Part shown: positions 9,774 to 64,000 of the stretch, one piece after another
Numbering within the stretch: the first letter of the stretch is position 1
How the letters are laid out: the number at the start of each line of letters is the position of its first letter
NCBI GenBank assembly: GCA_020628095.1
Contig: JAHDFP010000009.1
Location: 62,001-126,000, forward strand
From: Saprospiraceae bacterium
GTDB taxonomy: Bacteria; Bacteroidota; Bacteroidia; Chitinophagales; Saprospiraceae
Direction of reading: 5' to 3'
Length of the DNA stretch: 64,000 nt
The notes under the pieces: generated by a model
What the model was told of the DNA's origin: nothing
Databases searched by the model: none
What the model saw: only the letters and a program-made list of their open reading frames with translations
Made by a program: the position numbers and the translations under genes

Positions 9774-9782
9774 AAGTGGTAA

Positions 9783-9790
9783 CAAAGCTA
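9783..9790 (-). promoter_or_regulatory. -7 box (TAGCTTTG) of the glmM operon
   Basis: Minus-strand TAGCTTTG is an exact TAnnTTTG match 9 nt before the glmM ATG, which implies a transcript with almost no leader. Confidence 0.55.
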
Positions 9791-9835
9791 TAAAAGTGCG
9801 TTATAAAACCCCCATTATTCCATTATTTTGCGACT

Positions 9836-10399: not shown

Positions 10400-10400
10400 T

Positions 10401-11291
10401 ATGTCAGCAACTATATTAGATGGTAAGCATCTGTCCAAAGTACTAAAACAAGAGATGAAGGATGAGGTGGAGCAAATTATCAAGCAGGGTGGAAGACCAC
10501 CGCACCTATCGGCCATCCTTGTGGGAAATAATCCAGCGAGCGAATCATATATGCGCAACAAAGTGCGGTCATGCGCTGAGGTGGGGTTTACATCGCAGCT
10601 CATCCGTGAGACAGCCGATATATCAGAAGCAGATCTCATAAAGATGGTGCATCACCTCAACGAAGATCCGACAGTAGATGGATTCATAGTACAACTGCCA
10701 TTACCAGATCACATAGACGGAGATAAAATATTACTGGAAGTAGCCCCTGAGAAAGATGTGGATGGTTTTCACCCATATAATTTTGGGTGCATGGCGCAGG
10801 GCTTAGATAGTTATTTGCCAGCCACGCCTTATGGTATTCTCATACTGCTCGAAAGATATAATATAGACCCCACTGGTAAGCAAGCCGTGGTGATAGGAAG
10901 AAGTAATATAGTAGGTACACCGATCTCTATCTTACTCAGTAGAAAAAGTAAGAATGGTAATGCCACAGTTACTTTAGCGCACTCCAGAACTAAGAACCTG
11001 AGAGAGCTCTGCCTTAGTGCTGATATTTTGATTTCTGCTCTTGGCAAACCATTTTTCGTGACCTCTGACATGGTCAAAGAAGGGGCTATTGTCATAGATG
11101 TCGGTATCAATAGAATAGATGATCTATCCAGGAAATCTGGTAGTCGACTGGTCGGTGATGTAGATTTTGAGAAAGTATCTCAGGTCGCTTCTTATATTAC
11201 TCCAGTACCTGGTGGCGTGGGGCCTTTGACAGTTGCTTCTTTGTTGTTGAATACTTTGAAGGCTTATAAGAGACATCAGCTGAAATCTTAA
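10401..11291 (+). CDS. folD: Methylenetetrahydrofolate dehydrogenase/cyclohydrolase
   Basis: A 296-residue FolD that interconverts 5,10-methylene- and 10-formyl-tetrahydrofolate in the cytoplasm. Diagnostic segments: YMRNKVRSCAEVGF (catalytic Lys region), DGFIVQLPLPDHID, KDVDGFHPYN, VVIGRSNIVGTP (dinucleotide binding) and PGGVGPLTVASLL. Length and motifs are normal. Its ATG begins one base after the stop of the PAP2 gene. Confidence 0.96.
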   Translation: MSATILDGKHLSKVLKQEMKDEVEQIIKQGGRPPHLSAILVGNNPASESYMRNKVRSCAEVGFTSQLIRETADISEADLIKMVHHLNEDPTVDGFIVQLPLPDHIDGDKILLEVAPEKDVDGFHPYNFGCMAQGLDSYLPATPYGILILLERYNIDPTGKQAVVIGRSNIVGTPISILLSRKSKNGNATVTLAHSRTKNLRELCLSADILISALGKPFFVTSDMVKEGAIVIDVGINRIDDLSRKSGSRLVGDVDFEKVSQVASYITPVPGGVGPLTVASLLLNTLKAYKRHQLKS

Positions 11292-11353
11292 TTGTTAGCC
11301 TTTACTGAAAGCATCTATAAGCATGCATGAACCCCAAAATGGCCAAAGTAAAA

Positions 11354-11385
11354 AAGAGACCGCCTCAGTTATAAGACAGTCTCTT
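11354..11385 (-). terminator. Terminator after the 11.4-12.9 kb T9SS gene
   Basis: AAGAGAC / GTCTCTT stem with partial extension. Read on the minus strand it runs into TTTTTT, so it terminates the minus-strand gene; it may also slow folD readthrough from the other side. Confidence 0.7.
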
Positions 11386-11409
11386 CAGTAATAAATCTTT
11401 ATTGGTAAA

Positions 11410-12891
11410 TTACTTAACCACAACAAGCTTTTTGTTTATTATCTGATTATCTCTTCTGCATTGCAAATAATATAATCCCTGAGGCAAATCTTTAGTATTA
11501 AATATGTAAGATTCTGAACTATCCCAAAGGTCAAAAGAATGAACCAGCCGACCACTTCCAGTTATAATTGAACAAGAAAGTCGGCTTCCACTATTATTTG
11601 TAATAAAAATTCTATCTACCATAGGATTAGGGTAGACTTCGACCTTGATTTCATCATCTATGATAACAGAATTAGTACCAAAACTACCTATTGGAATGCC
11701 TTCTTCATCTATTCTAGCGATTATTATACTACTATGTGCTTTTCCTTCGGGGGTAGGAACCCAATAATCATCAAACCCTGCAACGATATATCCTCCCTCT
11801 GGATGGGGAATTATATCATAAAAGACATGATATGCTTTATTAGTATCTAAAGATGTAAATCTTCTATACCAAATACTATCACCTTCCAATGAAAGCTTGG
11901 CAACAACAGCATAACTTAGCAAAGTATCTCTTTGCGGCGCTTCTATCAGAGCAGAACCAGAGATAATGTATCCATCTTTGTTATTAGATTCTTTTATTCC
12001 ATGCCATTGTGAATCTAATGTAAATTCTTGCTCAATTCTTCCTATAACTCTCTCCCAATATACATTCCCATTAGTGTCTAGCTTAGTCACCATGGGCTTG
12101 TAACCAGTTCTACCCTCATCTACTAGTAGACTGCTATGTACAATGTCTCCATGTTGATCTACAAGCTGGGTAGCAAAGTGTACTTTGAATAATTCCGATT
12201 TTTCTTCTACTCTTCCCAGCAAGTTTAAGTCTTCATCAAATCGATAAAGTATAGCTTTTGCCTCGTTCGTATCATTGAAGTATGAATGAACAAGAAATTC
12301 GCCTTCTTCTTTTCTAAATATCCGTTCACCATTTGCAGAAATTGAATTATCTATTTCTCGGAATGATTTTATTATGGAATCTTTCGAAACTTTAATAATA
12401 CCAAAATCTGAATTACTATTTGATACTCTAAAAAATCCAGAAAATAAATACTCATCGTTATCTAAAACAATATAGTCTTTAGAATTAAAATCGGAAAGAT
12501 ATGAGTCAAGAGTATCCAAAGTGTTTAAGTCATTTTCACCCCAGTCATAAGAATACATTATAGTTCGACCAGAGCCAATACTCATCCAAAATATTTGATT
12601 ATCCTTGTAAGTAATGTCATTAAAAACAAACATTAGATAATCAATTTCTGGTATGGTGTCGAAGTGTATAAGATTACAACTATAGTCATACGTAGCCATG
12701 AACATGTGTCTATAATCCAATGAATCAAAATAGGCCAGTCCACCCATTATAAAAACATCTTCCATTGGGTATAAGCCATAAGGCGTTGTCCAGCTAGTTC
12801 CAATATGCTTTTGATCTGCTTCAAAAACCTGACTAGATAATTCGTTGCAGAATAACGCTATAAACAGAAATAAATACTTTTTCATTTTCAA
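11410..12891 (-). CDS. T9SS-secreted protein of unknown function
   Basis: A 493-residue protein with an N-terminal signal peptide (MKMKKYLFLFIALFCNELSS) and a C-terminal type A sorting domain (VEVYPNPMVDRIFITNN ... LPQGLYYLQCRRDNQIINKK). The middle has repeated strands with 'GGYIVAGFDDYW' and 'DGYIISGSALIEA' type motifs, like the beta-propeller-like repeats of many Bacteroidota surface proteins. No catalytic motif recognised. A terminator lies just downstream, so it is probably a single-gene unit. Confidence 0.8.
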   Translation of the reverse strand: MKMKKYLFLFIALFCNELSSQVFEADQKHIGTSWTTPYGLYPMEDVFIMGGLAYFDSLDYRHMFMATYDYSCNLIHFDTIPEIDYLMFVFNDITYKDNQIFWMSIGSGRTIMYSYDWGENDLNTLDTLDSYLSDFNSKDYIVLDNDEYLFSGFFRVSNSNSDFGIIKVSKDSIIKSFREIDNSISANGERIFRKEEGEFLVHSYFNDTNEAKAILYRFDEDLNLLGRVEEKSELFKVHFATQLVDQHGDIVHSSLLVDEGRTGYKPMVTKLDTNGNVYWERVIGRIEQEFTLDSQWHGIKESNNKDGYIISGSALIEAPQRDTLLSYAVVAKLSLEGDSIWYRRFTSLDTNKAYHVFYDIIPHPEGGYIVAGFDDYWVPTPEGKAHSSIIIARIDEEGIPIGSFGTNSVIIDDEIKVEVYPNPMVDRIFITNNSGSRLSCSIITGSGRLVHSFDLWDSSESYIFNTKDLPQGLYYLQCRRDNQIINKKLVVVK

Positions 12892-50320: not shown

Positions 50321-50525
50321 ACTTGATCCCCCGTTACAAGGCAATGAATACCTTATCAGGTATATGTAAGCCCTTTTTAGTACATTGAGCCACAGACTCT
50401 TTTAGTAAAAAAACAACACAGGAATCAATCAAGACATCTTAAAGGCGATCAAGCTAGTATGGAGTGCAAGCAAACCACTGACCATACTGAGCATCGGTCT
50501 ACAGCTTACGCAGGCTGTTATACCC

Positions 50526-52187
50526 TTGATTATATTGTATCTGACTAAAGTTATTATAGATACCTTGACCTTGAGGAGTCAGGAGGTGTCGTTTGACTAT
50601 ATATTGTGGTTGATGATAGGATTGGGTGGTGTGTATTTAGTGCAGATAATCATCCAGAATGTCCAGCAGCTTGTCTCAGAGTCTCAGCAGCAAAAGGTGT
50701 CCGATAGTCTGTCCGTCAAGGTCATAGATAAAGCGATCAATCTGGATATCAGTTTTTACGAAAATCCAGCTTTCTACGATACACTGCATCTTACGCAGTC
50801 TCAAGCTATGTATAAGCCCATCAGGATATTACAGAATCTGACCGATCTGATGAGGCATATCTTTACTTTGTTGTCACTTAGCGCCTTGTTGTTATTATTG
50901 CATTGGTCGATAGGGTTGGTTCTTATAATATGTGCAATACCAGTTGCTTTTGTCAAACTATATTATTCTAAAAAGCTATTCCTCTGGGAAAAACAAAGAG
51001 CCTTCTTACAAAGACAGTCTAACTATTTTAATCGTATTCTGACTTCTGATAGATACGCTAAGGAGTTGCGCATATTTGGATATGGAGAAAAACTTAAAAA
51101 CCAGTTTGTAACCATCAGAGAGCGGTTGTATGGTGAGAAGTATAAGATCGGCAAAGGCACGGCACAATCGAGTATATTGGCTAAGAGCCTCGAGATCATT
51201 GCCTTAGTGGGGGTATTTACATTTACTGCATGGAGAGCAGTACAAGGTCATATTACAGTAGGAGATGTGGTTATGTATTTTCAAGCATTCCAAAAAGGTC
51301 AATCTAGTATACAGAGTGTTATGGCGTCATGGGTATCTCTATATAGTAATAGGCTCTTTATATCACATCTTTTTGACTTGCTGGAGTTAGAGTCACGATT
51401 AGAAACTGTCGATAATCCAATCGTATTAAAGCCACTGACTCATCAAATAGAGCTGAGTGGTGTCCACTTCCATTATCCCGATCATGACAAGACGGTACTA
51501 AACGATGTTAACTTGACATTCGAAAAAGGAAAAATATATGCGCTCGTCGGCGAAAATGGCTCAGGTAAGACATCCCTTATCAAGTTACTTTGTAGGTTCT
51601 ATGATCCATCGGAAGGCACTATTAGTTGGGATAATGTGGAGTATAAACAGGCCAGTCTTGATTCCTTATACGATAAGATTACGGTGATCCATCAGGATTT
51701 TAGGACTTACCAGATGACAGTAGGTGAGAATATAGAAATCAGCGACTCCTCCCTAGATGACAATTACGATCAGGCAAGAGTAAGACACGCCGCGATAAGT
51801 GCAGGCGCAGACGAATTTATATCCACACTCTCAGAGGGCTATGAGCAAAAGGTGGGACGATGGTTTAATAATGGGGTAGAGCTGAGTGGTGGACAATGGC
51901 AAAAGTTAGCTCTGAGTCGCGCTTTTTATAAGAAAGCCGATGTCATTGTTTTAGATGAGCCGACCTCTTCTATCGATCCGATATCTGAGGCAAAGATCTT
52001 TGATAATCTTAGGTCCATAGCAGAAGATAAGATTTTGATTTTGATATCACATCGGATTTATAATTTGGAGTCAGCGGATGAGATTATTGTTTTTGATGAT
52101 GGACGAGTAGTACAGCATGGCGGGCATAATGATCTGATCTCTCAGGAAGGCCTATATAGAAAAATGTATCATAGCCAGAAAAGATAA
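50526..52187 (+). CDS. ABC exporter of the lasso-peptide cluster (lasso D)
   Basis: A 553-residue half-transporter: membrane domain (about 1-270), then an ATPase domain with Walker A VGENGSGKTSLIKL, signature ELSGGQWQKLALSRAF and Walker B VIVLDEPTSS. Equivalent D proteins export lasso peptides and confer self-immunity. The first standard start is TTG at 50526, but the frame is open to 50409 and encodes NQDILKAIKLVWSASK and IGLQLTQAVIPL, which looks like the family's first helix; that part has no ATG/GTG/TTG. It is followed after 10 nt by the cyclase. Confidence 0.88.
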   Translation: MIILYLTKVIIDTLTLRSQEVSFDYILWLMIGLGGVYLVQIIIQNVQQLVSESQQQKVSDSLSVKVIDKAINLDISFYENPAFYDTLHLTQSQAMYKPIRILQNLTDLMRHIFTLLSLSALLLLLHWSIGLVLIICAIPVAFVKLYYSKKLFLWEKQRAFLQRQSNYFNRILTSDRYAKELRIFGYGEKLKNQFVTIRERLYGEKYKIGKGTAQSSILAKSLEIIALVGVFTFTAWRAVQGHITVGDVVMYFQAFQKGQSSIQSVMASWVSLYSNRLFISHLFDLLELESRLETVDNPIVLKPLTHQIELSGVHFHYPDHDKTVLNDVNLTFEKGKIYALVGENGSGKTSLIKLLCRFYDPSEGTISWDNVEYKQASLDSLYDKITVIHQDFRTYQMTVGENIEISDSSLDDNYDQARVRHAAISAGADEFISTLSEGYEQKVGRWFNNGVELSGGQWQKLALSRAFYKKADVIVLDEPTSSIDPISEAKIFDNLRSIAEDKILILISHRIYNLESADEIIVFDDGRVVQHGGHNDLISQEGLYRKMYHSQKR

Positions 52188-52197
52188 TCCACCATAG

Positions 52198-53829
52198 ATG
52201 TCTGAGCATTCCTATACCATATTAGAATCATGGCATAAGTCAGAAAACGACATAAGCGTATATGGAGGAACGTTAGGTTTGCACCACCCGATTTATCAAC
52301 ACATTGACAAGATCAATGATCCTGATTATACGGATAATTATAAGTATCTAAAGGATTCCTATGTTCTCTATTATTACCATAATCAAAATCAAGTTCTATC
52401 ACTATTACGAGATATCATAGGTGGTCTTCCTCTATATTATACCATCATAGATAATCATCTTTATGTCGCTAATTCTATTACCAAAATATTAGACTGCACA
52501 TCTGTCTCGCACGCACCAGATAAGAAATACAAAACCGACTATATCTGTCGCTCTTTTTCTAAAAATGACTATACCTACTATAAACATATCAAGATCCTGC
52601 CTGCAGGACACCTTTTGCTATGGTCTCAAGGAAAACTAGAGATACGGCCTCAACTCTCTTGGCAAGTGGAGGAGCAGACCTTATATGATAATAGGCCAGA
52701 TTATATCTCCTATCTACAAGGCCTCATGGAGGAAAGTATCTATCACCAAGTCAAAGACAAAAAGAAAGTGGCTGTAGAGTTCAGTGGAGGTCTGGATAGT
52801 ACAAGCATCACAGGGGTATTACAACATCTACGAGAGACCAGATTGCCTGATCTAGAGATCTATACATACTCTCATGCGCAGTCGCTGACTCCTTTGTATA
52901 ATGAGATCGATGACGAGAGAGACCTTATAGAGATTTCGCGCAAAGCCATGGGGATAGATCCTAACTATCATGTCATCTTGGATAGACAAGACAAGAGTAT
53001 GCGTGCGCTTTATATGCATGCTTATCGCCTGGGTAATTGCATCAGCAAATCGCATTATGCCATCTACTCTAAAAGCATCTATGAGCAAGCACAAAAAGAT
53101 GGCATCGATCTAATTTTATCTGGGTTTGGCGGAGATCAGATCATCAGTACGCGCAAGGTGAAGCTCAGACCAAATATCAATACTCAATCCCTGAAAGAAT
53201 ATCTTAAGACCACATCTAGGCAGGGGATAAGATATGGGATGGATAGAAGCTATATTTTCAGAAAGCTCTATGGCTATGTCCGTAAGAGAATACTCATGGC
53301 TAAGAAAAAGCCTATTATAGATATAAGAGCTAGCTATGGACAAATATGGCCTGACCTCAAGGGTTATTTAGACCCTGTCTTACAATCTATACAACCCCAA
53401 TTAGGTCAACAAACCCAAAAGAATATCAAACATCTTATGCGTTACGACTTATTGCGTATGGGGCTCATGGAGCGTCTGGAGGCGACCTATCATGCGGCAG
53501 AGCATTATGGTGTGCGGTATGCTTATCCTTTGCTCGATCCCAGACTGGTGCAGACAGTACTGGAGATGCCGATGGATTATGTCACGGGTTATCATAAGCG
53601 TAAACTATTCCGTGATATTATCAGCAAATGGTTGCCGCCTATCGTCTATAACCGTATAAAAAGAGGAACCGATATGTATGGGTGGGTGATGGATAACTAC
53701 TACTACGATTATCTCCATAATATTCCCTATGACAGAACAGACATGGACGCGGAACAATTATTTTATATCGAAGTGGAAGAAATGTTTGATAGGCCCTTAT
53801 GGAAGTCTTTCGATAAAGAAAAGGTCTGA
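52198..53829 (+). CDS. Lasso cyclase (asparagine-synthetase-like, lasso C), intact PP-loop
   Basis: A 543-residue asparagine-synthetase B homologue. The N-terminal glutaminase-like domain lacks the Cys2 nucleophile (starts MSEHSYTILES), as expected of cyclases; GGLPLYYTIIDNHLYVANSI marks its end. The ATP-pyrophosphatase domain has the intact loop VEFSGGLDSTS (about 193-203). Lasso cyclases adenylate a Glu/Asp side chain and join it to the core N-terminus. It directly follows the exporter (10-nt gap), so the two are one operon. Confidence 0.85.
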   Translation: MSEHSYTILESWHKSENDISVYGGTLGLHHPIYQHIDKINDPDYTDNYKYLKDSYVLYYYHNQNQVLSLLRDIIGGLPLYYTIIDNHLYVANSITKILDCTSVSHAPDKKYKTDYICRSFSKNDYTYYKHIKILPAGHLLLWSQGKLEIRPQLSWQVEEQTLYDNRPDYISYLQGLMEESIYHQVKDKKKVAVEFSGGLDSTSITGVLQHLRETRLPDLEIYTYSHAQSLTPLYNEIDDERDLIEISRKAMGIDPNYHVILDRQDKSMRALYMHAYRLGNCISKSHYAIYSKSIYEQAQKDGIDLILSGFGGDQIISTRKVKLRPNINTQSLKEYLKTTSRQGIRYGMDRSYIFRKLYGYVRKRILMAKKKPIIDIRASYGQIWPDLKGYLDPVLQSIQPQLGQQTQKNIKHLMRYDLLRMGLMERLEATYHAAEHYGVRYAYPLLDPRLVQTVLEMPMDYVTGYHKRKLFRDIISKWLPPIVYNRIKRGTDMYGWVMDNYYYDYLHNIPYDRTDMDAEQLFYIEVEEMFDRPLWKSFDKEKV

Positions 53830-53846
53830 GCAAGAGATATTAGTCA

Positions 53847-53951
53847 TTAATTCGTGTTCTTTTTGCTTTTCCTTTTTTTGAAAAATAGTATCCAGATAAT
53901 TTCTACAATGATTACACCCAAAATCCCTACAATAATGTTTGTCGAATCCAT
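53847..53951 (-). CDS. 34-residue single-span membrane microprotein
   Basis: ATG at 53951 to TAA at 53847. Sequence MDSTNIIVGILGVIIVEIIW followed by ILFFKKRKSKKNTN: one hydrophobic helix of about 20 residues and a strongly basic tail, predicting N-out/C-in topology. It begins 18 nt after the stop of the degenerate cyclase homologue on the same strand, so the two are likely co-translated. No family recognised; could be an immunity or scaffold peptide, or a chance frame. Confidence 0.5.
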   Translation of the reverse strand: MDSTNIIVGILGVIIVEIIWILFFKKRKSKKNTN

Positions 53952-53969
53952 ACTAATTGATTTACTATT

Positions 53970-55796
53970 TTAAACTGACTTATTCATCTTTTTATTATTA
54001 CTAATAAAACGCTGGACTAGTAAAAGATAGTTAAATCGTAAGTAATTTTTTCTGTAGATTTTATTGGTTTTATCGGCTTTCATTTTTTGGATGAGGTCGT
54101 CTGATTTTTTTCTATCTACAATATCCCATATCGGGTCATCGTCCTTGATCTTGTCATACTCAGAGTACATGGCTGGCATGATAGAGAAATATCTTTGTGG
54201 CCAGTCGATGGGCCAGGACATCGGTCTAGCTTGCCAAAACTTGTCAGGTATCCCAAGTGATCTATACAATCTATGTACCAGCGGTGGCGTGTCGCCATAG
54301 CCTAGATACTCCTTGGCGTCTATACTGTCTAGTAGGACTTGTAGTCTGGGATGATTGATGAGGGCTATGCGTAAGATGTTATACCTCCTCTCTATAGAGC
54401 TATGGGGTTTGATTATACCTTTGGGGATATTCTTTTTTCTTGAGGATATTTTAGAGAGGTCAATCTTATACTTATGGATGAGTTCTTGTCTGCATAGGGA
54501 AGAGCGATGAGGATTGTAGTTATGACTCAGTATTTTTCTTTTGGTATGGATAAGGGTGTCAGGTAATTTAGATTTGATGAGTTGTTTTAGGGTTGCCGAT
54601 TTATTTTTTAGATAGAAAAAGTTGCGGAAGAAAAAGCGCATCTGTTCTCCATAGATGCGGCTATACGCCTGAGGTTCGATTTGATTGTCGGTTATATTAC
54701 CTGCAATATATCGACAACCCACCTTACGCAAAGCTCCATAGATGACCTCATGGTCTGTCCCTATGGGATTGACAGTTGGCGTGTCATTGACCCACATTTT
54801 GTAATCTACACTGTCGTCCATTTCTGTAGGTAGAGGGTCATTGTATCCGTGCAATAGCTGGAAAGGAAATAAGGACTGGAACTCCTGTAGACGCTGATGC
54901 ATATCATCCGATCGTGGATTACGACCCTGCGGTAATATATATGACGACCCATAAATGGTCATATCGGGTAGAACCTTTCGCAGAAGCGCAATAGATAATA
55001 ACGTACTTGGTCTATCAGATGCAAAACAGCCTATCTTATCTATCTCCTGATCCTGTACCACCTGCCGTAGATTGTGCTCAACTATATGGAGTATCTGAGA
55101 TTCTAGAGATATAGATTTATCGGTATATAGATTATATCTGGTGATGTGATCTTGTATGGTCGTAATATGGTATTTTCCTTGGTTGAAATCTAACCACTGA
55201 TAAGATGCCAGAGCTTTGACATGATGATAAGCCGTACGTCCGTCAGGGATGTCGGATATTGTAATAATACGACTTAGTGTATGTCGGTCCAGTTCTTTTG
55301 TTGTGGTTGATGCCTGTAAGATGGCTTTGATTTCTGTCCCAAAATAGAGGGAGTTATCTTGCACAGTATAGAAGAGACTCCTTCCTTTGTTACACAATAC
55401 GCACGTCTGTTGTTCTGCATTATATATGGCAAAAGCATAATGGCCAGAGACATATTGATAGAGAGATTTTCCCCATTTGATATAGGCCTTAAGGAGAATC
55501 ATGTCCTCCACATCGTATGCCTCCTGAGTTTGGTGTATATCCAACTGAGCACATAATTCTTTTCTGTTATAGATGATGCTGTCGCTGGTAATGGTCCATT
55601 GTCCTTCTGAGTATACTTTTGTGAGGATGCTGTGATGTGATTGACCGAATAAGATGATTTTGGCTAGGCTCGTGTGCGCATCGGGTGTATAACAAAGCCT
55701 TGAGACCTCGGAGTTGCCTAGGGACTCGGCCATCTTGCGGATATCTTCTGGTCCAATGACTGGACAAGATATATAACCTGCTATACCACCTATCAT
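53970..55796 (-). CDS. Asparagine-synthetase-like protein with degenerate active sites
   Basis: A 608-residue homologue of lasso cyclases/AsnB. The N-terminus is MIGGIAGYIS, without the Cys2 glutaminase nucleophile; the domain still has the usual VSGHYAFAIYNAEQQTCVL and YFGTEIKAIL segments. Where the PP-loop SGGLDSS should be, it reads FASDRPST (258-265), so ATP binding and adenylation are probably lost. It is coded opposite to the intact cyclase and followed by the 34-residue membrane protein. It may be an accessory subunit or a dead paralogue; retention of full length argues for selection. Confidence 0.82.
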   Translation of the reverse strand: MIGGIAGYISCPVIGPEDIRKMAESLGNSEVSRLCYTPDAHTSLAKIILFGQSHHSILTKVYSEGQWTITSDSIIYNRKELCAQLDIHQTQEAYDVEDMILLKAYIKWGKSLYQYVSGHYAFAIYNAEQQTCVLCNKGRSLFYTVQDNSLYFGTEIKAILQASTTTKELDRHTLSRIITISDIPDGRTAYHHVKALASYQWLDFNQGKYHITTIQDHITRYNLYTDKSISLESQILHIVEHNLRQVVQDQEIDKIGCFASDRPSTLLSIALLRKVLPDMTIYGSSYILPQGRNPRSDDMHQRLQEFQSLFPFQLLHGYNDPLPTEMDDSVDYKMWVNDTPTVNPIGTDHEVIYGALRKVGCRYIAGNITDNQIEPQAYSRIYGEQMRFFFRNFFYLKNKSATLKQLIKSKLPDTLIHTKRKILSHNYNPHRSSLCRQELIHKYKIDLSKISSRKKNIPKGIIKPHSSIERRYNILRIALINHPRLQVLLDSIDAKEYLGYGDTPPLVHRLYRSLGIPDKFWQARPMSWPIDWPQRYFSIMPAMYSEYDKIKDDDPIWDIVDRKKSDDLIQKMKADKTNKIYRKNYLRFNYLLLVQRFISNNKKMNKSV

Positions 55797-56005
55797 ATCT
55801 GAGACGTCATGGGCGAATGTGAATCAATAATCGGATATAATACCCCTCGTGAATACACGATATTACTCACAAATCCAGTTAAAAATGCCAAAAAATGCCT
55901 TTATTTCCTTTTTCTCATTAAAAAAATCATCATACAGCGATTTAGTTATTATCTTCATACTTTGAATTAATATAACTAACTACCAATAGTCAAAAAACCA
56001 AAAAA

Positions 56006-56173
56006 ATGCAAGACAAAAAACAATGGAAAACACCGACAATCACTGAATTAGATCATAAGGATTCTGCTGGCGGTGCTGGCGGTGCAGAAGGTGCACATAA
56101 TCCTGGCTCTACATATCACACTGGGTTTTCTTTCACTGTAGTAATAGGGGCTACTGGAGTTTTAGGGTCATAA
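56006..56173 (+). CDS. Lasso-peptide precursor A1
   Basis: A 55-residue peptide too short for standard gene calling. The leader MQDKKQWKTPTITELDHKDS has the W-x-x-P-x-I-x-x-L-D motif recognised by PqqD-type B1 proteins (the usual form is Y/W-x-x-P-x-L). The core starts around A21/G22 with GGAGGAEGAH; Glu28 would be ring residue 8 or 7. The remaining tail is long (core 34-35 residues against the usual 15-26) and ends in GVLGS with a C-terminal Ser. It is close in leader and core to A2. Exact cleavage cannot be fixed from sequence: Ser20 is where many precursors have Thr at -2. Confidence 0.75.
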   Translation: MQDKKQWKTPTITELDHKDSAGGAGGAEGAHNPGSTYHTGFSFTVVIGATGVLGS

Positions 56174-56331
56174 TCTTATCATGATTATTATAGAAGTAGC
56201 TAAGTAAAATACTTATAGAACTACTGACCATTCTATTCTCAAAAAAAGGCTGCTACAAATTTAATATTGGACATTAGATATGCCCTCTATATGTATTAAG
56301 CATTGTGTCTAATGAAAAAACTAACAAGCCT

Positions 56332-56505
56332 ATGGAGAATAAAAAGGAATGGAGACCTCCTACCATTAAAGACTTAGATCATAGTCTAGCTGAGACAGGT
56401 GCAGGTGGTGGTCCTGAGGGAGCGCACTCTGAAGGTGCTGTCGTGCATAATTCCATATCATTTTCTGATCTGGTCGGTGGATCTGGCGTACAGGGTATGT
56501 CTTGA
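56332..56505 (+). CDS. Lasso-peptide precursor A2
   Basis: A 57-residue peptide. Leader MENKKEWRPPTIKDLDHSLA aligns with A1; then ETGAGGGPEGAH, where a core starting at G23 puts Glu29 at ring position 7 with Thr22 at -1. The core (about 35 residues) ends GVQGMS, again a C-terminal Ser. An in-frame GTG at 56305 would add nine residues not matched in A1, so the ATG at 56332 is preferred. A1 and A2 are 158 nt apart on the same strand. Confidence 0.75.
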   Translation: MENKKEWRPPTIKDLDHSLAETGAGGGPEGAHSEGAVVHNSISFSDLVGGSGVQGMS

Positions 56506-56706
56506 TTTATTTTAAGTTATTTCCTATATAATTGATAGATTTTAAAGGAAATATTAATAAATCCTCTGGGATCATAATTTACCGATATTTCTTAATAAGT
56601 AATTGCTTGGATGTTCTCTACAGAATAAGCTCTTACATCTTAGCCTTCGAGTAGATTTAGGATTGATAAGCCCTGTCAGATTATTCATCTGGTGCTTGGT
56701 AGTCTA

Positions 56707-57777
56707 TTAGAGTATTCTCTCTATTTTATTTTTAATATTTTCTTTAGCCGTAATGATAATTTTTCTTTTCGCGTATTTGTATAGATTGTAATGCAGGTAC
56801 GGGACTTCTGATTTTATATAATTAAGATAGATAACTAAGTCGGCTGGCTTATGCTCACTGCGCAAAGAGCCACTAGCCCATGATACATTTCTTGCATCCA
56901 AAAAAGTGGTTAGTGCTGCGTATGTTTCCATCCGATCATCAGAATGATGTATGAGCAAAACTGATCCCAATGCATTGTATGATTTTAGATATTGGATTAT
57001 GAGCTCTTGTAGTTCTTCTTTGTTCTTTTGATAATATATCTTATCCACGGTAGGACATTGTCCGTCGTGATATAGTCTTGGTCCTATTTTGGCAAATGCA
57101 CTGAAGTCGTTTTTGGCATTGATCTTCTTGTCCTTCTCTTTTTTGTTCTCTGCGATAAGGAATACATTATGATTGCTCCATCTCATATTAGGATAAAACG
57201 ATTCTGTGCAGGTGGCCCAGCTTTTTATAAGTAAGGGATATAGCGGTACTCTGGACATCATAAGACCTAACTTATGGAATAAGTACATGGTCTTCTTGTT
57301 AATATGACTATGAAAGTAGGTCACAGATACGGTGTCATATTCCGTCAGTAGCATCTGACGAATGCGATCTACATTTATTCGTTTGGGACTTTCTATCAGA
57401 AGATGACCACCTGGACTGACCATATCAGATAGTTTTTGGATAACGCCTACAACTGGTCGCGGAGGCAAGTATATAAGTGTGAAACTACAGACCACCATAT
57501 CCACAATATTCTTTAACGGTGGAAGATTGGCAATGTTACTTTGTACAGCGATATTTTTGCCCTGATATCTAGCTAATGATTTTTGTAGGCTGTTTTGCTT
57601 GATGTCCGCACCGATATATAAGACATCCTCGCCGAACATAAACCGATTAATAAACTGTGCCGAAGCAATATCCAATACTCTTTTGGGCTTATGTTTTTTG
57701 GCAAATTGGTGTATACGCTTATAGGCATAATGCGCATAAGGGAGGTGACTGTAGAGTTTTGTTTTGGGGTTTCGCAA
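56707..57777 (-). CDS. SAM-dependent methyltransferase-like protein with extra C-terminal domain
   Basis: A 356-residue protein. Residues 1-about 200 form a class I methyltransferase: RVLDIASAQFINRFMF (motif I), DIKQNSLQ (acidic end of strand 2), VVCSFTLIYLPPRP and GGHLLIESPKRIN. About 230-356 is a second alpha/beta domain (LGSVLLIHHSDDRMETYAAL, DLVIYLNYI) of unknown type. The only in-frame start is TTG at 57777. Within the lasso cluster it could methylate the peptide, but motif I lacks the usual GxGxG. Confidence 0.7.
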   Translation of the reverse strand: MRNPKTKLYSHLPYAHYAYKRIHQFAKKHKPKRVLDIASAQFINRFMFGEDVLYIGADIKQNSLQKSLARYQGKNIAVQSNIANLPPLKNIVDMVVCSFTLIYLPPRPVVGVIQKLSDMVSPGGHLLIESPKRINVDRIRQMLLTEYDTVSVTYFHSHINKKTMYLFHKLGLMMSRVPLYPLLIKSWATCTESFYPNMRWSNHNVFLIAENKKEKDKKINAKNDFSAFAKIGPRLYHDGQCPTVDKIYYQKNKEELQELIIQYLKSYNALGSVLLIHHSDDRMETYAALTTFLDARNVSWASGSLRSEHKPADLVIYLNYIKSEVPYLHYNLYKYAKRKIIITAKENIKNKIERIL

Positions 57778-57810
57778 GTATCTATGTTATTGAGGTCGGT
57801 ACAAGATAGA

Positions 57811-60800
57811 TTATTTTCTAGTGATCTGATAGAGTTGTCCAGAGGACAGGGATTGGTCTATGGCATTATGTTGACCATCTGCCCACACAACTTCCATTCT
57901 ATCTATAGATGTTGACTTACCGATACCAAAGTATGCGACTGGAATATCAAAGGACTTATAACCACCAGAGGCTAGTATCTCTCTGATTTGGTTTTCTCCA
58001 TTATTATAGTGTATGTAGATCTTCGCATTGATGCCGTGACTATTACCTTTTTTATCATTGAGTCGGAAGGCGATGCTATGGTTGTCTGTTCCTTGGTTAT
58101 TATATATTGTTACTGGTCCAATACATGGAGCCATGATGATATCGAGATCACCATCCAAATCATAATCCACATAAGTATAACTGGTTGCTGGTAGATGGCT
58201 CTCTATTCCATGGTCTGTTGTCTTATCGCTAAATTTTTCGCCACCTTCATTTTTCAGAAATGTATTCCTAAATTGATTTTTCGTCAACAAATAACCATTG
58301 ACAACAAACAAGTCCTGGTAGCCATCATTGTCCACATCAGCAAATTTACTATTCCATGTCCAGCCTAGATTTTTGAGGTTTATTTCCTCGTTATCTAATA
58401 TTTTGTATCTATCTCCATCGAGTTTGTATAGGTTAGATTCCCCCTGTACTGTGGTTTGTTTGTATAGCGTGGTAGTGTCAGCTAACTCAACATTATTAAG
58501 GTCTAGACTATAAAGAGTTGACAAGAAAGGAGATAACACTTGGGGAAGATTCTTTTTCATGTAGTTGACATAGCTCGTATCATCAAACCATAGATATTGG
58601 TTATATGCAGAAATATAACATTCTGCCTTATGCTTTGTAGGACAGATAGATATGTCTCTTTGGGTGGATGCCGTCAGATACATCTTATGTAATGTCATGA
58701 TGTCCTCGCAAGTGGCTCTTTCTTTGGGGTCTATTATGGACTTACAGGTTAGTTTAGGGTTATAAAAATAGGTATGATCCGAAGGTGAAATTTGAGTCTC
58801 TAATATTTCCAGTTCCAGATCATTATCGAGGTCAGCTGATATAAAAGACATCGTTGTCTGCGTAGAGAAAGGTATAAGACTATCTGCTCTTATCGATAAG
58901 CGGAGTTGCTTGCCATCATTAATGTACAAGCTATTGCTTACCATAAAATCATTACCCACCCATAAGTCTATATCCTTATCCTGGTCCAGATCGGATAAGA
59001 GTACGCTCAAGGTTTCGCCATCAGGTCCAGCCAAGGTGTCGGTGCTATAACTCTGACCATCATAGAGATGCCAGTAATTTTTGGAAGTTGGTATAGAGTG
59101 TAGACTGACTAAAGGACCATAAGACCAATTACCCGTAAAGACATCCAGATAACCATTATTATCAATATCTGCAAAAGCAATCGCGGACGTGTATATATGA
59201 TCGTAAGGCATCTCGAATGCCCTCATCTCACCTGTCTCAAAAACACCTTCCTTGTTATATAGGATATAGTTGCCTTGATCGTAGGTCGAGATAAATATAT
59301 CCGTCCAGCCATCATTGTCGAGATCGGCTGGTGCGGCATTAATTATATTAAGAGTGTCTGGTAGGCTTAGGGTCAGTTCGTAAAAAGATTCTCCTTCGTT
59401 ATTATAAAATAGCTGTAGGCTCAGATTAGATGCGATGACAAGATCAGGCCAGCCGTCATTATTGAGATCAGAAGAAGAGATAGTACGACCTGTATTGTAT
59501 GGAGATATACGACTATAGACAGAGAATTCGTAAGGACAATGTATTCCTATGTCAGGACCTTCTATCTGGCTAAAAAGGGTCTCGCTCTCTTTTTTCTTAT
59601 TATCAAAAAATGGATGTGTCGACACCTTAATATTGTCATCATCCAATAAAAGGGTAGGCTCAATTTTATTTTTCATAAGCTGTGATCTGAGATCTGTGGT
59701 AAGGTACTGGCGATCTCTGATCGGTGATGAGATGGTAAAGAGTTCGGTTAGTCTGGGTAGATGATAATGCAATAGTTCTAGGTCATTCTTTTTGATTTTC
59801 TTTTCGGCGATATGACTGATCATTCCACTGCCTATCCCTAGTCCTACAATACATAGTAATAACATAAATGCTAGCTTCTTAGAAAAATGCTGATGCACTA
59901 TGAAATAAGGATACAAAGAAAAACTACTCAAAGTAATAAGGAGTATAGCCACATACTTAGTCTCTAGTCCCAGCCCCCACAGCACGAAACAAATGATAAT
60001 ATCAAAGGTCATAGGAACAGGTAATAAAGTCCCTATAAGAGAAACCAAGACCATCGCTGCCAATATTGTTTTTCGGCTGGCGACTTGCGGCATCATATCT
60101 ATGAGACTATCTAGAGGTAGATATGTAATAATCACATTACCTAAGAAACCAGCCAGTAGCATAAGTGGAACGGCTAGTATAATAATTGTCCATAGGTGTT
60201 TCGCATAGCTCTTGATAAGCCAGATAATAGGATTGTCGTCGGTGTCACACAGGTCTCTATTACATTTGTCATCGGATGTGCTTAACGTCGTGCCGAGCCA
60301 TCGGTCCAGTAGAGAAGGTGCACGTACGACCATCAACTGATCTGCTGGAAAAAAACGAACGAGCAAAGGAATACAAACCAGTAATATGACGAGCAATGTA
60401 CCAAACTTAATCAGTATCAGATAGAGCGGAAACATACTGAACAGCATCGACAGAGCAATGGGGTTAAGATTAGGCGAACTGATCATGGTGGCTAAGGCTG
60501 TCTCAGGTCTGGCGCCAGATTTTTTCATGCCGAGTGCGATGGGTGCAGCACAGTTGACACAGACGCCCAATGGAGTGCCTATGATCGTACCGAGCATAGA
60601 ATTAATCCATCTGTTATTACTCGAAAATTTTTTAAGCTCCTGAAATAAGACCATCAGCGCCGCTGCAAATAGCAAACCGAAGAGCATACCTTTTTTGTTG
60701 GTTTCTATCCAGTTGAGCGTATGATATATGACGGCTTGAGCCTTGGGTGTATTATCGTCTATACGAAAAGGCATATCAAAGCTCAAGCCCTGAAAAGGTG

Positions 60801-60924
60801 TTTCGCCAGCCATCATGGCTTTTTCGTTGAGTTGCGGATACCGTGATCCCAGCCAAAAGAATGCGGTAATGATAACCAGCCAGATTATTGATAGCGCGAT
60901 TCTGATTTTCTGAGTCTTGGTCAT
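57811..60924 (-). CDS. Permease (DUF318/ArsP-like) fused to FG-GAP propeller and ASPIC/UnbV domain
   Basis: A 1037-residue fusion. Residues about 1-370 are a membrane permease of the DUF318/ArsP class with at least eight helices and the motif GTPLGVCVNCAAPIALGMKK (116-135), then SSPNLNPIALS, the class's Cys and Ser-Pro signatures. From about 465 onward come FG-GAP/VCBS blades (SSSDLNNDGWPDLVIASNLS-type, PADLDNDGWTDIF, FADIDNNGYLDVFTG) and a C-terminal ASPIC/UnbV domain (ILASGGYKSFDIPVAYFGIG). I chose ATG 60924 over an upstream TTG. Such a fusion could couple export to an extracellular binding propeller. Its place inside the lasso gene set suggests product handling (inference). Confidence 0.85.
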   Translation of the reverse strand: MTKTQKIRIALSIIWLVIITAFFWLGSRYPQLNEKAMMAGETPFQGLSFDMPFRIDDNTPKAQAVIYHTLNWIETNKKGMLFGLLFAAALMVLFQELKKFSSNNRWINSMLGTIIGTPLGVCVNCAAPIALGMKKSGARPETALATMISSPNLNPIALSMLFSMFPLYLILIKFGTLLVILLVCIPLLVRFFPADQLMVVRAPSLLDRWLGTTLSTSDDKCNRDLCDTDDNPIIWLIKSYAKHLWTIIILAVPLMLLAGFLGNVIITYLPLDSLIDMMPQVASRKTILAAMVLVSLIGTLLPVPMTFDIIICFVLWGLGLETKYVAILLITLSSFSLYPYFIVHQHFSKKLAFMLLLCIVGLGIGSGMISHIAEKKIKKNDLELLHYHLPRLTELFTISSPIRDRQYLTTDLRSQLMKNKIEPTLLLDDDNIKVSTHPFFDNKKKESETLFSQIEGPDIGIHCPYEFSVYSRISPYNTGRTISSSDLNNDGWPDLVIASNLSLQLFYNNEGESFYELTLSLPDTLNIINAAPADLDNDGWTDIFISTYDQGNYILYNKEGVFETGEMRAFEMPYDHIYTSAIAFADIDNNGYLDVFTGNWSYGPLVSLHSIPTSKNYWHLYDGQSYSTDTLAGPDGETLSVLLSDLDQDKDIDLWVGNDFMVSNSLYINDGKQLRLSIRADSLIPFSTQTTMSFISADLDNDLELEILETQISPSDHTYFYNPKLTCKSIIDPKERATCEDIMTLHKMYLTASTQRDISICPTKHKAECYISAYNQYLWFDDTSYVNYMKKNLPQVLSPFLSTLYSLDLNNVELADTTTLYKQTTVQGESNLYKLDGDRYKILDNEEINLKNLGWTWNSKFADVDNDGYQDLFVVNGYLLTKNQFRNTFLKNEGGEKFSDKTTDHGIESHLPATSYTYVDYDLDGDLDIIMAPCIGPVTIYNNQGTDNHSIAFRLNDKKGNSHGINAKIYIHYNNGENQIREILASGGYKSFDIPVAYFGIGKSTSIDRMEVVWADGQHNAIDQSLSSGQLYQITRK

Positions 60925-60970
60925 TTTGGTTATCAAAGGGTATGTGAGTATCAGATGATAGTTGATAGGC

Positions 60971-61855
60971 TCAGACTAGTAACTGACCATCAGGACTAAT
61001 GTAATTATATTTTTCCATAAGCGGACGGTGCTGGTCTATGATACGCTGGGCTTGATCTTCTGAGAGGTCGTCACGCCAGCTTCCGACGACACCTTTCCTA
61101 AAAAATCTCTTGGCCCGATGAGTTTTCTCATTGAAGCCATATTCGTCTTCTTGCTTTTGTAGCTTTTCTATTTTGCTTTTGTCCAGAGCTTCTGCAACCT
61201 CCTCTTTAGTATAATCTAAACCAGAAAACTTCACAATTTTATAGAAGGTCTCGACCGAGTCCTTCTTCATGTCTTCGTAGCGGACGACGTGTATTTTCTC
61301 GTCTAGCATGTTCTCTGTCCAGCTTAGTACATGATCTGTCCAGCTTCCCATGTATTGATGGATTTGGAGATTGACCTTTTTTTTTGATTTGGCCAATGTG
61401 AGATTGGCGCTTGACATATGCTGGATTGTAATATCAAATTTGTCATGCCCACTATGATAAGCGTACGATACACAGACATCGAGAGGATTACGGATCAGAT
61501 AGATCACCTTATAGGTAGCAGATAAGGGGATAAGCCAGTTGCCATCTTGATTTTTAGTCAGTGCGTCATGAGTTTTGACGAATTGTATTTCATCTAATTG
61601 CGAGGATCGCAACTCATGTACTCTGGGAAGGTAGTAGTCTATCTCTTCCGCACGCATATCTGAAGAATCTACACCGACTAACTCATCAAATAGATGCCGC
61701 GAAGATGAGATACTTCCTGTCTCGGTAAGCATATTAATATAGACGGGTTCTTCATTCTTGGACATTAGATTATTGAGGAAAATTCTGAGCCATGTATTTC
61801 CTGATTTAGGATAGGAGGCGAGCCATATTATTTTTCCTGCCTCAGCTTGTAGCAT
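60971..61855 (-). CDS. Sulfotransferase
   Basis: A 294-residue PAPS-dependent sulfotransferase: 5'-phosphosulfate loop IIWLASYPKSGNTWLRIFLN near residue 10, 3'-phosphate segment VIYLIRNPLDVCVSYAYHS, and a late FRKGVVGSWRDDL (the RKGxxGDWK motif). Its start overlaps the HPr-kinase-like gene by 14 nt, tying it to the lasso operon; it could sulfate a Ser/Thr/Tyr of the core. Confidence 0.88.
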   Translation of the reverse strand: MLQAEAGKIIWLASYPKSGNTWLRIFLNNLMSKNEEPVYINMLTETGSISSSRHLFDELVGVDSSDMRAEEIDYYLPRVHELRSSQLDEIQFVKTHDALTKNQDGNWLIPLSATYKVIYLIRNPLDVCVSYAYHSGHDKFDITIQHMSSANLTLAKSKKKVNLQIHQYMGSWTDHVLSWTENMLDEKIHVVRYEDMKKDSVETFYKIVKFSGLDYTKEEVAEALDKSKIEKLQKQEDEYGFNEKTHRAKRFFRKGVVGSWRDDLSEDQAQRIIDQHRPLMEKYNYISPDGQLLV

Positions 61856-62771
61856 CTTCTGCTATTTTGAAGAGGTCTTTTTCTATCAGGTCTACTACCT
61901 CATCGAGGCAGAAAGCGTGTGATCTTCTGATGCGTTTGACTGGAATAAGATTAGCGAGTCTAGTCGCGTCCATAAAGTGATGATTGATCGCGCCGATATC
62001 CTTGAGTAGATATTTTCTGTAGGTCATGTTTTTGATCAATCGGAACTTGTTGACATTTTCTACATCGAATAGTTCGACACCATCTCTAGTGGATGGCTGT
62101 AAGATATATAAAGCTTTCACAGGGAGTGGGGTGGAGACGAATTGTTCGGTTATGGGGATGGCCCTTTTGTTAATTTTGTTTCGGATCATTTTGAGGTTTT
62201 CGTATTCCACCTCAAGTCTATGCAGAGTGTCATCCCAGAGTTTGGATTGTGGATAACCTGGCAGAGCAAAGGGGTTTCCACCTTGGAATATAATAGGACA
62301 GACATCATCTGTCAGCATCTTATATCCTTTAAGGCGGAAGGCATTGGCTGTGGAAGATTTTCCAGCACCTGAGATGCCTGTAAAGAGAACCGCTTCACCA
62401 TTATAATCGATAGCACTCGCATGCATCGGTAGGACTTTTCTTTGTTGTAGTATCGCGCCTAGGCAAGATCCTAGTAAGAAGATGCGGATATCATCATCCA
62501 GACTATTTTCTTTTCTGTCTATAATAATCTGGTTACCATGGGATATGTAATATCTGGCTATGTCCTTTAGGTCTAAGAGAAATTGATCTTTGGCGATCTC
62601 ATAGGTGACACCTTTCTTAGTGCAATCGGGTAGGGATGTCGGTGCTGGTCCATATTTGATAATCAGATCGCTATCGCCAGTATGGTCTGATGACAATAAT
62701 TCTGGCAGCTCGATTTGTGATTCTATCGTTAGCCCAAAAGTTTTATATCTGTAATAACCCGTCTTTGTCAT
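61842..62771 (-). CDS. HPr-kinase-like protein (candidate lasso-peptide kinase)
   Basis: A 309-residue protein related to the C-terminal part of HPr(Ser) kinase. P-loop LFTGISGAGKSSTAN (about 129-143), the preceding LPMHASAI with a conserved His (117), and LTDDVCPII with the acidic residues. In the paeninodin-type lasso clusters this protein phosphorylates a C-terminal Ser; both precursors here end in Ser. It overlaps B2 by 4 nt and the sulfotransferase by 14 nt. Confidence 0.85.
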   Translation of the reverse strand: MTKTGYYRYKTFGLTIESQIELPELLSSDHTGDSDLIIKYGPAPTSLPDCTKKGVTYEIAKDQFLLDLKDIARYYISHGNQIIIDRKENSLDDDIRIFLLGSCLGAILQQRKVLPMHASAIDYNGEAVLFTGISGAGKSSTANAFRLKGYKMLTDDVCPIIFQGGNPFALPGYPQSKLWDDTLHRLEVEYENLKMIRNKINKRAIPITEQFVSTPLPVKALYILQPSTRDGVELFDVENVNKFRLIKNMTYRKYLLKDIGAINHHFMDATRLANLIPVKRIRRSHAFCLDEVVDLIEKDLFKIAEDATS

Positions 62772-63208
62772 ATTATTTTTTGGACAGGTGTAAAATTATC
62801 TGATACGTCATCACCAATGATAACCTTACCCTGATGCTCTATCCAGGCATGTGCTTCCAGGTCTATTTCTGCGGATGTCGCCACACCAAGACATAAGGCG
62901 GACGGGATTTCCTTTTTGTTCAGAAAATATTTGAGCGTCAAGGCACGATCATAACAATTACTCTTGAATGGTGCTCTCCGTGATAGCCCTTTTATATATC
63001 GTACTGTCTTAGCTATGTAATGACTGTCTTTATTATTAGATGTATAATTACTGGGCAGGTTAGGTTTGGATATTTTGGCTACGATTTTTTTGAGAGGCAG
63101 ATTATTGATATTCCTTCTGGACTGAAACATAACGAAGAAAATATGGATTATAAAGTGCAAATCAAAAACGGTAATTTTTTTACTGGGATTCTGCATGGTT
63201 GGTGCCAT
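62768..63208 (-). CDS. Lasso-peptide B2 leader peptidase (transglutaminase-like)
   Basis: A 146-residue protein with the B2 triad: Cys in FKSNCYDRALTLKYFL (85), His in LEAHAWIEHQGK (120), and Asp in IIGDDVSDN (133/134). ALCLGVATS and HAWIEHQG are characteristic of the transglutaminase-like lasso B2 family. ATG at 63208 chosen; 63196 is possible. It overlaps the B1 gene by 29 nt and the kinase gene by 4 nt. Confidence 0.88.
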   Translation of the reverse strand: MAPTMQNPSKKITVFDLHFIIHIFFVMFQSRRNINNLPLKKIVAKISKPNLPSNYTSNNKDSHYIAKTVRYIKGLSRRAPFKSNCYDRALTLKYFLNKKEIPSALCLGVATSAEIDLEAHAWIEHQGKVIIGDDVSDNFTPVQKII

Positions 63209-63473
63209 CAATAACCTTAAGCAAATTATCAGATATTAATTTATCTAAAAAAGACGAAATATCAGCAACGCATTGGTCTTCAGTCACATTATAGTCTTGG
63301 ATTAGATAATCTTTGATTTCGGATATGCTTTTGGGCTTCTTGATATATTCCCAGATAAGACTGCCTATTTCGTCTATTTTGAAGTATTTTCCGCTCTCTA
63401 CTGTCAGTAGCACGATCTCATTTCCTATTTTGCTATATAGCAATTCAGGATCGAGCATATATCTCTCTTCCAT
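63180..63473 (-). CDS. PqqD-like leader-recognition protein (lasso B1)
   Basis: A 97-residue winged-helix RRE: GNEIVLLTVESGKYFKID, IDEIGSLIWEYIKKPKSI, SEIKDYLIQDYNVTEDQC and VADISSFLDKLISDNLLKV match PqqD/B1 proteins that bind the leader W/Y-x-x-P motif and deliver it to B2. First gene of the minus-strand lasso operon (B1-B2-kinase-sulfotransferase-permease fusion-methyltransferase). Confidence 0.9.
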   Translation of the reverse strand: MEERYMLDPELLYSKIGNEIVLLTVESGKYFKIDEIGSLIWEYIKKPKSISEIKDYLIQDYNVTEDQCVADISSFLDKLISDNLLKVIDGTNHAESQ

Positions 63474-63609
63474 GAGTGTTGTTAATTGGGGTTAAGTCTA
63501 AGAGCTAATATATGATGATTTTATTTCACAGATCGGACATTTAACTATTAAAAGAGTAGGTGTAAAAGGAGCGTAAGTCAGAGACAATGGCTATTTTTCC
63601 AGTGTTAGC

Positions 63610-64000
63610 ATGCAGCAAGAACTAAAAATCATCATACAACTTATAAGCGATGCCTTTGGGTTGTCAAAGTTCTCAGTGGATAATAATAATCAGGCTACCG
63701 ACTGGAAAGCGGTGCTGCAGACGGCTAGACAACATAAGGTGATTCCCATGTTATATACAGCTTGTCTTAATAATAGGTCATCCATCCCCACGCGAGTCCT
63801 GACTGCGATGGAACGAATGGTTATAAAGTCATCAAAGTTTAACCTCCTTCAAAAAAGAGAACTTCAGGAACTCATTCTTTTATTCCAAAAAAACAACATT
63901 CGTCTTATTCCCTACAAGGGTGTCATATTAGCCGAAGCTGTCTATGATGATTTATCCAGAAGAGATTTTACGGATATAGATCTTATCATAAAAGCAGATG
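63610..64000 (+). CDS. Nucleotidyltransferase-family protein, N-terminal fragment
   Basis: From ATG at 63610 to the window edge, 130 codons. QHKVIPMLYTACLNNRSSIP and IRLIPYKGVILAEAVYDD with SRRDFTDIDLIIKAD contain the D-x-D metal motif of the nucleotidyltransferase family (PF14907-type) found beside lasso-peptide kinases. Divergent from B1, so it likely belongs to the cluster. The C-terminus lies beyond the window. Confidence 0.85.
   Translation, partial: MQQELKIIIQLISDAFGLSKFSVDNNNQATDWKAVLQTARQHKVIPMLYTACLNNRSSIPTRVLTAMERMVIKSSKFNLLQKRELQELILLFQKNNIRLIPYKGVILAEAVYDDLSRRDFTDIDLIIKAD

Follow-up and report, generated by a model that had tools for sequence, protein, structure and literature searches.

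Gene content of the locus

The DNA studied here (the window) is a stretch of 64,000 nucleotides from a Saprospiraceae bacterium of the phylum Bacteroidota, covering positions 62001-126000 of a 155600-base contig (JAHDFP010000009.1) in a genome of 4.2 Mb and 33 contigs. A gene cluster that a sequence-only reading had taken for a lasso-peptide cluster spans window 50.4-64 kb and extends to the contig position equal to window 64731. We consider a lasso-type pathway for a ribosomally synthesised and post-translationally modified peptide (RiPP) the best reading of this cluster, with a probability of about 0.7 for the pathway with the chemistry proposed below: B2 exceeds a lasso-specific cut-off, B1 exceeds the PqqD cut-off and the leader recurs in two related clusters. 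The gene content, the motifs and the conservation of the leader and of a kinase-sulfotransferase pair are direct observations. All genes named in the earlier reading (B1, B2, cyclase, exporter, two precursors, kinase, sulfotransferase, nucleotidyltransferase, methyltransferase-like gene and permease fusion) are present by profile and leader motif, the kinase with a Pfam score under the cut-off; its list had omitted a second asparagine-synthetase-like gene at 53970-55796 (- strand). The features are as follows.

50409..52187, + strand: ABC exporter, gene D (permease and ATPase); ABC_tran 110.1 bits, ABC_membrane 42.9 bits; true start uncertain
52198..53829, + strand: C1, asparagine-synthetase-like cyclase; Asn_synthase (PF00733) 87.3 bits (cut-off 21); SGGLDST loop intact, N-terminal amidotransferase domain shortened
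53970..55796, - strand: C2, cyclase homologue, probable pseudoenzyme; GATase_7 52.5 bits, no Asn_synthase match
56006..56173, + strand: precursor A1, 55 residues, by leader motif and alignment; probable core of 34 residues from residue 22 (Gly1, Glu7; predicted cut), ends in Ser
56332..56505, + strand: precursor A2, 57 residues, by leader motif and alignment; probable core of 36 or 35 residues from residue 22 or 23 (Glu at 8 or 7; predicted cut), ends in Ser
56707..57777, - strand: methyltransferase-like protein; Methyltransf_11 26.2 bits (cut-off 21.2), three other methyltransferase models just under cut-off
57811..60936, - strand: ArsP-type permease fused to FG-GAP repeats and UnbV_ASPIC, 1041 residues; ArsP_1 52.5, FG-GAP_3 109.1, UnbV_ASPIC 44.6 bits
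60971..61855, - strand: sulfotransferase of the 3'-phosphoadenosine-5'-phosphosulfate (PAPS) type; Sulfotransfer_1 124.8 bits
61842..62771, - strand: HprK-like kinase; Hpr_kinase_C 26.8 bits, under the cut-off of 33.3
62768..63211, - strand: B2 leader peptidase; lasso_biosyn_B2 (NF033537) 70.7 bits (cut-off 33)
63180..63473, - strand: B1, RiPP recognition element (PqqD-like); PqqD 60.7 bits (cut-off 23.4)
63610..64000 and on to the contig position equal to window 64731, + strand: nucleotidyltransferase NTP_transf_5; 148.7 bits (cut-off 31.2)

The cluster had been described as split over several divergent units. Both strands are indeed used, with C2 lying on the - strand apart from the other genes of that strand, but the six genes B1, B2, kinase, sulfotransferase, permease fusion and methyltransferase-like gene form, in this order, one co-directional run, whose junctions are overlaps of 32, 4 and 14 bases followed by gaps of 34 and 33 bases. 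No compositional sign of horizontal import was seen, the GC content being 0.395 in the cluster versus 0.404 and 0.406 in its flanks.

Precursors, leader removal and tailoring genes

A1 and A2 are 49% identical and share the lasso leader motif [Y/W]xxPx[L/I] as WKTPTI and WRPPTI. The leader, written as KxWxxP(T/S)IxxL(D/N) and searched as a 36-base degenerate DNA pattern with at most one mismatch, matched twice in the window's own genome (A1 and A2 only), three times in the genome of locus L079 (JAHDGF010000028.1), once in that of L080 (CALDSS010000010.1) and not at all in G099, a genome from another family of the same order; every match was free of mismatches. L079 and L080, the two nearest related loci, are contigs of Saprospiraceae metagenome-assembled genomes, and all six sites are precursors of these two clusters and of the window. 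The reversed pattern, used as a control, gave no match in any of the four genomes searched; with this control and the matches to several independent profiles, chance or artefact was rejected as the source of the cluster. Conservation of the precursor frames among relatives, which the sequence-only reading had named as a check, extends to the leader and not to the cores.

In related precursors the distance from the Trp to the core, read by eye, is mostly 15-16 residues. Under this spacing the predicted cut would give a core beginning with Gly1 and carrying Glu7 in A1, and either Gly1-Glu7 or Thr1-Glu8 in A2, so that in both peptides the Glu at core position 7 or 8 would follow a Gly-rich stretch. 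Precursors of the related loci L126 and L159, the latter from the window's genus, have an acid at core position 8 under the same spacing. A C-terminal Ser ends 39 of 98 short open reading frames (ORFs) with the leader motif, versus 118 of 1441 other short intergenic ORFs (window and 53 loci), the 98 having been picked with a loose motif that lets in non-precursors and counts some contigs twice. Beyond the genome's own two precursors, an A1 alignment searched against 395 genomes of the phylum gave three weak matches (E 0.0025-0.0087), two with internal stops and one within a 623-residue frame, and scans with precursor patterns matched 148 stretches in genome_contigs and 76 in viral_contigs, none of which was confirmed. 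Leader-motif ORFs of 86 and 89 residues, far beyond the usual length of lasso precursors, occur in L161 (12310-12570) and L160 (406-675); they have similar Cys-containing cores ending in Ser, and the clusters around them contain a tandem pair of HprK-like kinases and a sulfotransferase.

The profile check of B1 and B2, which the sequence-only reading had staked itself on, was survived by both. Against the lasso-specific model lasso_PqqD_Bac (NF033536) B1 reaches 73.7 bits, just below the cut-off of 80, which its relatives in L079, L080 and G099 exceed, and B2 also matches Transglut_core3 (71 bits, cut-off 26). Across 348 genomes of the order, 15 (the window's own among them) have B2, 14 with a score over the cut-off. 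A B2-type gene over the cut-off also lies at L052 6029-6463, on a 9.3 kb G099 contig where no other lasso gene was seen.

The P-loop SxxGKS and the DD pair of the kinase are invariant in 11 kinases of such clusters; the kinase pattern had no match in viral contigs. An HprK-like kinase (Pfam score below cut-off) together with a Ser at the C-terminus of both precursors is the combination that marks the paeninodin type. The stretch SYPKSGNTW is invariant across three aligned sulfotransferases, and the PDB matches of a profile built from these three members are PAPS sulfotransferases, the best being Teg14 and Teg12. These two enzymes act on glycopeptide antibiotics. In such clusters it is HPr-kinase homologues that place a phosphate on the linear precursor, at its C-terminal Ser; a nucleotidyltransferase can put hexoses on that phosphate, and a sulfotransferase gene is mentioned in Firmicutes clusters, with no product of such a gene given in the part of the report available to us (PMC8498205). 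The product of the present cluster may be phosphorylated and sulfated. A search for the mass of either core less one water, as suggested earlier, would overlook the product should it be modified by the kinase, the sulfotransferase or the nucleotidyltransferase. Just past the window an aminotransferase-like gene (L003 6728-7873), named from reading its sequence, overlaps the end of the nucleotidyltransferase gene by 4 bases.

A search of genome_contigs with an alignment of three kinases returned 37 loci, mostly with Bacteroidota titles and one each under the name of Acidobacteria, Aeromicrobium and Desulforapulum. In 17 of the 37 the gene immediately after the kinase, on the same strand, encodes a sulfotransferase. 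This share is biased upward and gives no population estimate, because L091 and L096, both among the 17, sit on contigs that carry query kinases (L056 and L053) and because the query was itself weighted towards kinases linked to a sulfotransferase; by hand count, 16 of the 17 have B1 or B2 on the fetched piece. L079 and L080 share with the window the leader motif, the exporter (51% identity), B1 (57-59%), B2 (35-37%), the kinase (53-56%) and the sulfotransferase (57-64%), and L079 carries three leader-motif precursors with these five genes at 7172-12695. Unlike the window, their fetched pieces have no match to the permease fusion, the methyltransferase-like gene or C2. Within the family, a kinase match (E 1e-25 or better) was found in 13 of 398 genomes, own included. 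Of the 13 other genomes listed for the genus, only G013 has the kinase; its cluster is a different one, with one cyclase of 609 residues, and nothing on the 17.1 kb contig matches the permease fusion. Kinase-type clusters repeatedly carry an aspartyl/asparaginyl hydroxylase-like gene, by PF05118 at L136 1546-2199 and L126 3069-3641 and by BLAST at L159 4157-4741 and L158 5295-5882.

The cyclase pair, the exporter and the permease fusion

The SGGLDS(T) loop, GGD, PLLD and the Arg/Lys region are all present in C1. The Ser of the loop stands at residue 196, versus a median of 261 among the rows compared, from which we conclude that some 60 residues of the amidotransferase domain are missing. C2 has lost all four of these synthetase-half motifs and retains the amidotransferase-type match; it is the sole one of 48 cyclase rows without the PP-loop S(G/S/A)(G/A)xDS, a set that includes 8 ordinary asparagine-synthetase-like outsiders forming one clade. 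Placement of the two proteins in a tree failed, both being long branches within an unresolved fork. AlphaFold predicted an asparagine-synthetase fold for C1 and C2 with middling confidence (mean pLDDT 70.6 and 67.5), and the best PDB match of both models is 7ylz (7ylz_B), with a TMq of 0.57 for C1 and 0.67 for C2; since the alignments held intact full-length cyclases, which favour that fold, the models count as support and not as proof. Searched against 148 relatives, C1 had matches in 83 genomes including its own, the best non-self match having an E of 7.7e-22 at 28% identity. No second lasso-type locus with two adjacent cyclase genes was seen among the loci compared, whose pieces were limited to 20 kb or by the ends of their contigs. 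An ATP-grasp gene lies beside an N-terminally shortened 562-residue cyclase in L080 (14613-15830, PF14397) and in L127 (5128-6339, similar by eye only).

The exporter, which had been placed at 50526, is confirmed as such, but its frame is open from 50409 and related exporters already align with it upstream of the TTG at 50526. Upstream of the conserved part (window 50409-50535) the open frame holds no ATG, GTG or TTG; an ATC start is possible, as is a shorter protein.

Relatives of the permease fusion were sought with its C-terminal 532 residues (the propeller half, permease excluded) in 298 genomes of the order, scoring up to four candidates per genome. Among the matches listed, full-length ones come only from the window's genome and from G099 (36-40%), where the relatives of the fusion have the same ArsP/FG-GAP/UnbV make-up, the other listed matches being partial. 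The G099 piece L136 carries, in this order, an Asp/Asn-hydroxylase-like gene, a kinase (40%), a sulfotransferase (41%), B1, a precursor-like ORF and an ArsP piece of 262 residues, 46% identical to the window's fusion and truncated by the contig end. A second G099 piece (L060) carries two fusions, one full and one cut at its N-terminus, together with an FG-GAP protein and a cyclase. This cyclase groups with seven others (99/93 support), of which six come from loci that have the kinase-sulfotransferase pair. Two more G099 copies of the fusion lie elsewhere, beside genes that read as MBOAT and SGNH types (from the sequence, no profile), on contigs without a match to the window's kinase, sulfotransferase, B2 or cyclase, which weakens the idea of a strictly lasso-linked fusion. 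The fusion is therefore a companion of such clusters in both genomes where it was found, and not exclusive to them. An FG-GAP/UnbV protein next to a kinase-sulfotransferase cluster in L160 had no ArsP match on its cut-off 758 residues. The methyltransferase-like protein has a C-terminal part unassigned to any family and a weak PDB match (YecO, E 0.0024).

Proposed pathway, alternatives and known systems

We suggest that the cluster probably makes two small ring-shaped, perhaps knotted peptides bearing phosphate and sulfate. B1 would bind the WxxPTIxxLD leader, the kinase would phosphorylate the C-terminal Ser of the linear precursor, and the sulfotransferase, perhaps also the nucleotidyltransferase, would add further groups. 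B2 would remove the leader after ~21 residues. C1 would use ATP to activate the Glu at core position 7 (or 8) and join it to the N-terminus of the core, so that the ring encloses the tail. The ABC transporter would export the product, which the permease/propeller protein probably handles after export or to which it may confer immunity. We infer all of these chemical steps, including ring closure, threading and the cleavage site, as well as what C2, the permease and the methyltransferase-like protein do, from gene content and motifs.

Several observations weigh against a lasso assignment, and some of them could be accounted for by a RiPP of another kind that has borrowed the lasso leader-removal module, the peptide being cut, phosphorylated, sulfated and exported while C1 makes another amide or an unthreaded ring, or uses another substrate. 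Against the lasso cyclase model lass_lactam_cya (NF033535, cut-off 525) C1 scores 114.8 bits and C2 71.2 bits, and the two have the longest end branches of the cyclase tree (3.0 and 4.0), so that the lasso-defining step rests on an N-terminally shortened and very divergent enzyme; for comparison, the full-length L060 cyclase, at 471.4 bits, is likewise under the cut-off. Most related clusters have shorter cores than A1 and A2, and under the favoured cuts position -2 of the leader, where Thr is usual, holds Ser in A1 and Ala or Glu in A2. Not every member of the subfamily fits a lasso product: under the same spacing the precursors of L080 and L136 lack an acid at core positions 7-9, that of L136 ends in Thr and several Chitinophaga precursors end in Pro, Ala or Asn, and the 20.9 kb L079 locus has no cyclase, PF00733 finding none on the contig that carries its precursors, with two further lasso-type clusters with cyclases (L126, L127) on another contig of that genome. 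On the other hand, both window precursors have the Glu at a predicted core position 7 or 8, C1 keeps its catalytic motifs, B2 is above the lasso cut-off, and many related clusters have one full-length cyclase near B1/B2. We regard a non-lasso RiPP as unlikely and retain the lasso-type pathway.

Within the lasso-type pathway, C2 is most likely a non-catalytic partner or scaffold of C1. It could instead be a functionless, decaying duplicate, C1 being enough by itself, an explanation that we take seriously yet find somewhat doubtful. Cyclases of 562 residues, shortened in the same domain as C1, are encoded in L080 and L124 with no C2-like gene visible beside them, which speaks for decay and weakens the notion of a cyclase split by necessity. 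However, the 608-residue frame of C2 is unbroken, its GC content at third codon positions is 0.43, as in C1, its GATase domain is still recognisable, and the fold is predicted to be retained, albeit from an alignment that favours it. Going further, C1 may provide the ATP-using half and the pseudoenzyme C2 the amidotransferase-like half partly lost from C1, neither working alone; if, in addition, the permease/beta-propeller protein handles the product on the cell surface, lasso-type biosynthesis would here have a separate branch that makes phospho-sulfo-modified long cores. We offer this two-protein cyclase tentatively, as a rather unlikely case. A similar doubt applies to the permease/propeller and methyltransferase-like genes, which could be unrelated neighbours, as suggested by the two G099 copies near MBOAT- and SGNH-type genes and by an FG-GAP gene that borders a published lasso cluster and is "presumably not involved" according to its authors (PMC10368454). 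Against this, both genes continue the B1 run with gaps of only 34 and 33 bases, the G099 ArsP piece starts ~120 bases past a precursor-like ORF in a kinase-sulfotransferase-B1 run, and a full fusion adjoins a cyclase on the other G099 piece; mere neighbourhood is thus improbable.

If C1 and C2 do form a heteromeric cyclase, the pair would tell apart the portions of the asparagine-synthetase fold that ring closure and threading require from those that can act in trans. Kinase and sulfotransferase genes that recur close together or overlapping bring sulfated or phospho-sulfo-modified RiPPs within direct reach of experiment.

Among the closest described systems is the paeninodin cluster of Paenibacillus, which shares a precursor ending in Ser, an HPr-kinase homologue, B1 and the core lasso and transport genes, and related Firmicutes clusters in the same report also have a sulfotransferase or nucleotidyltransferase gene, as here (PMC8498205). 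Unlike the paeninodin cluster as described in the available part of that report, the present one comes from Bacteroidota and has two cyclase homologues (one apparently dead), longer Gly-rich cores, the permease/propeller fusion and the methyltransferase-like gene. The pseudomycoidin cluster of Bacillus has the kinase and a nucleotidyltransferase, which there adds a hexose to the phosphate, and in the same available text neither a sulfotransferase pair nor a second cyclase is mentioned for it (PMC8498205). The bsf cluster of Bradymonas sediminis shares the kinase, nucleotidyltransferase, B1, B2, C and D, with the FG-GAP gene at its border, but its kinase acts on Ser3 and it has one cyclase; its leader likewise lacks Thr at -2, with Ile there, and is still cut by B2, Thr at this position being usual and not universal according to the sections of the report available to us (PMC10368454). 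In the open-licence literature on lasso peptides we found no report of such a cyclase pair or of an ArsP/FG-GAP/UnbV fusion in a lasso cluster. Compared with these systems, the cluster is ordinary in kind, and what sets it apart is the degenerate C2, the fusion protein within the run of B1, B2, kinase and sulfotransferase, and the long cores without Thr at -2.

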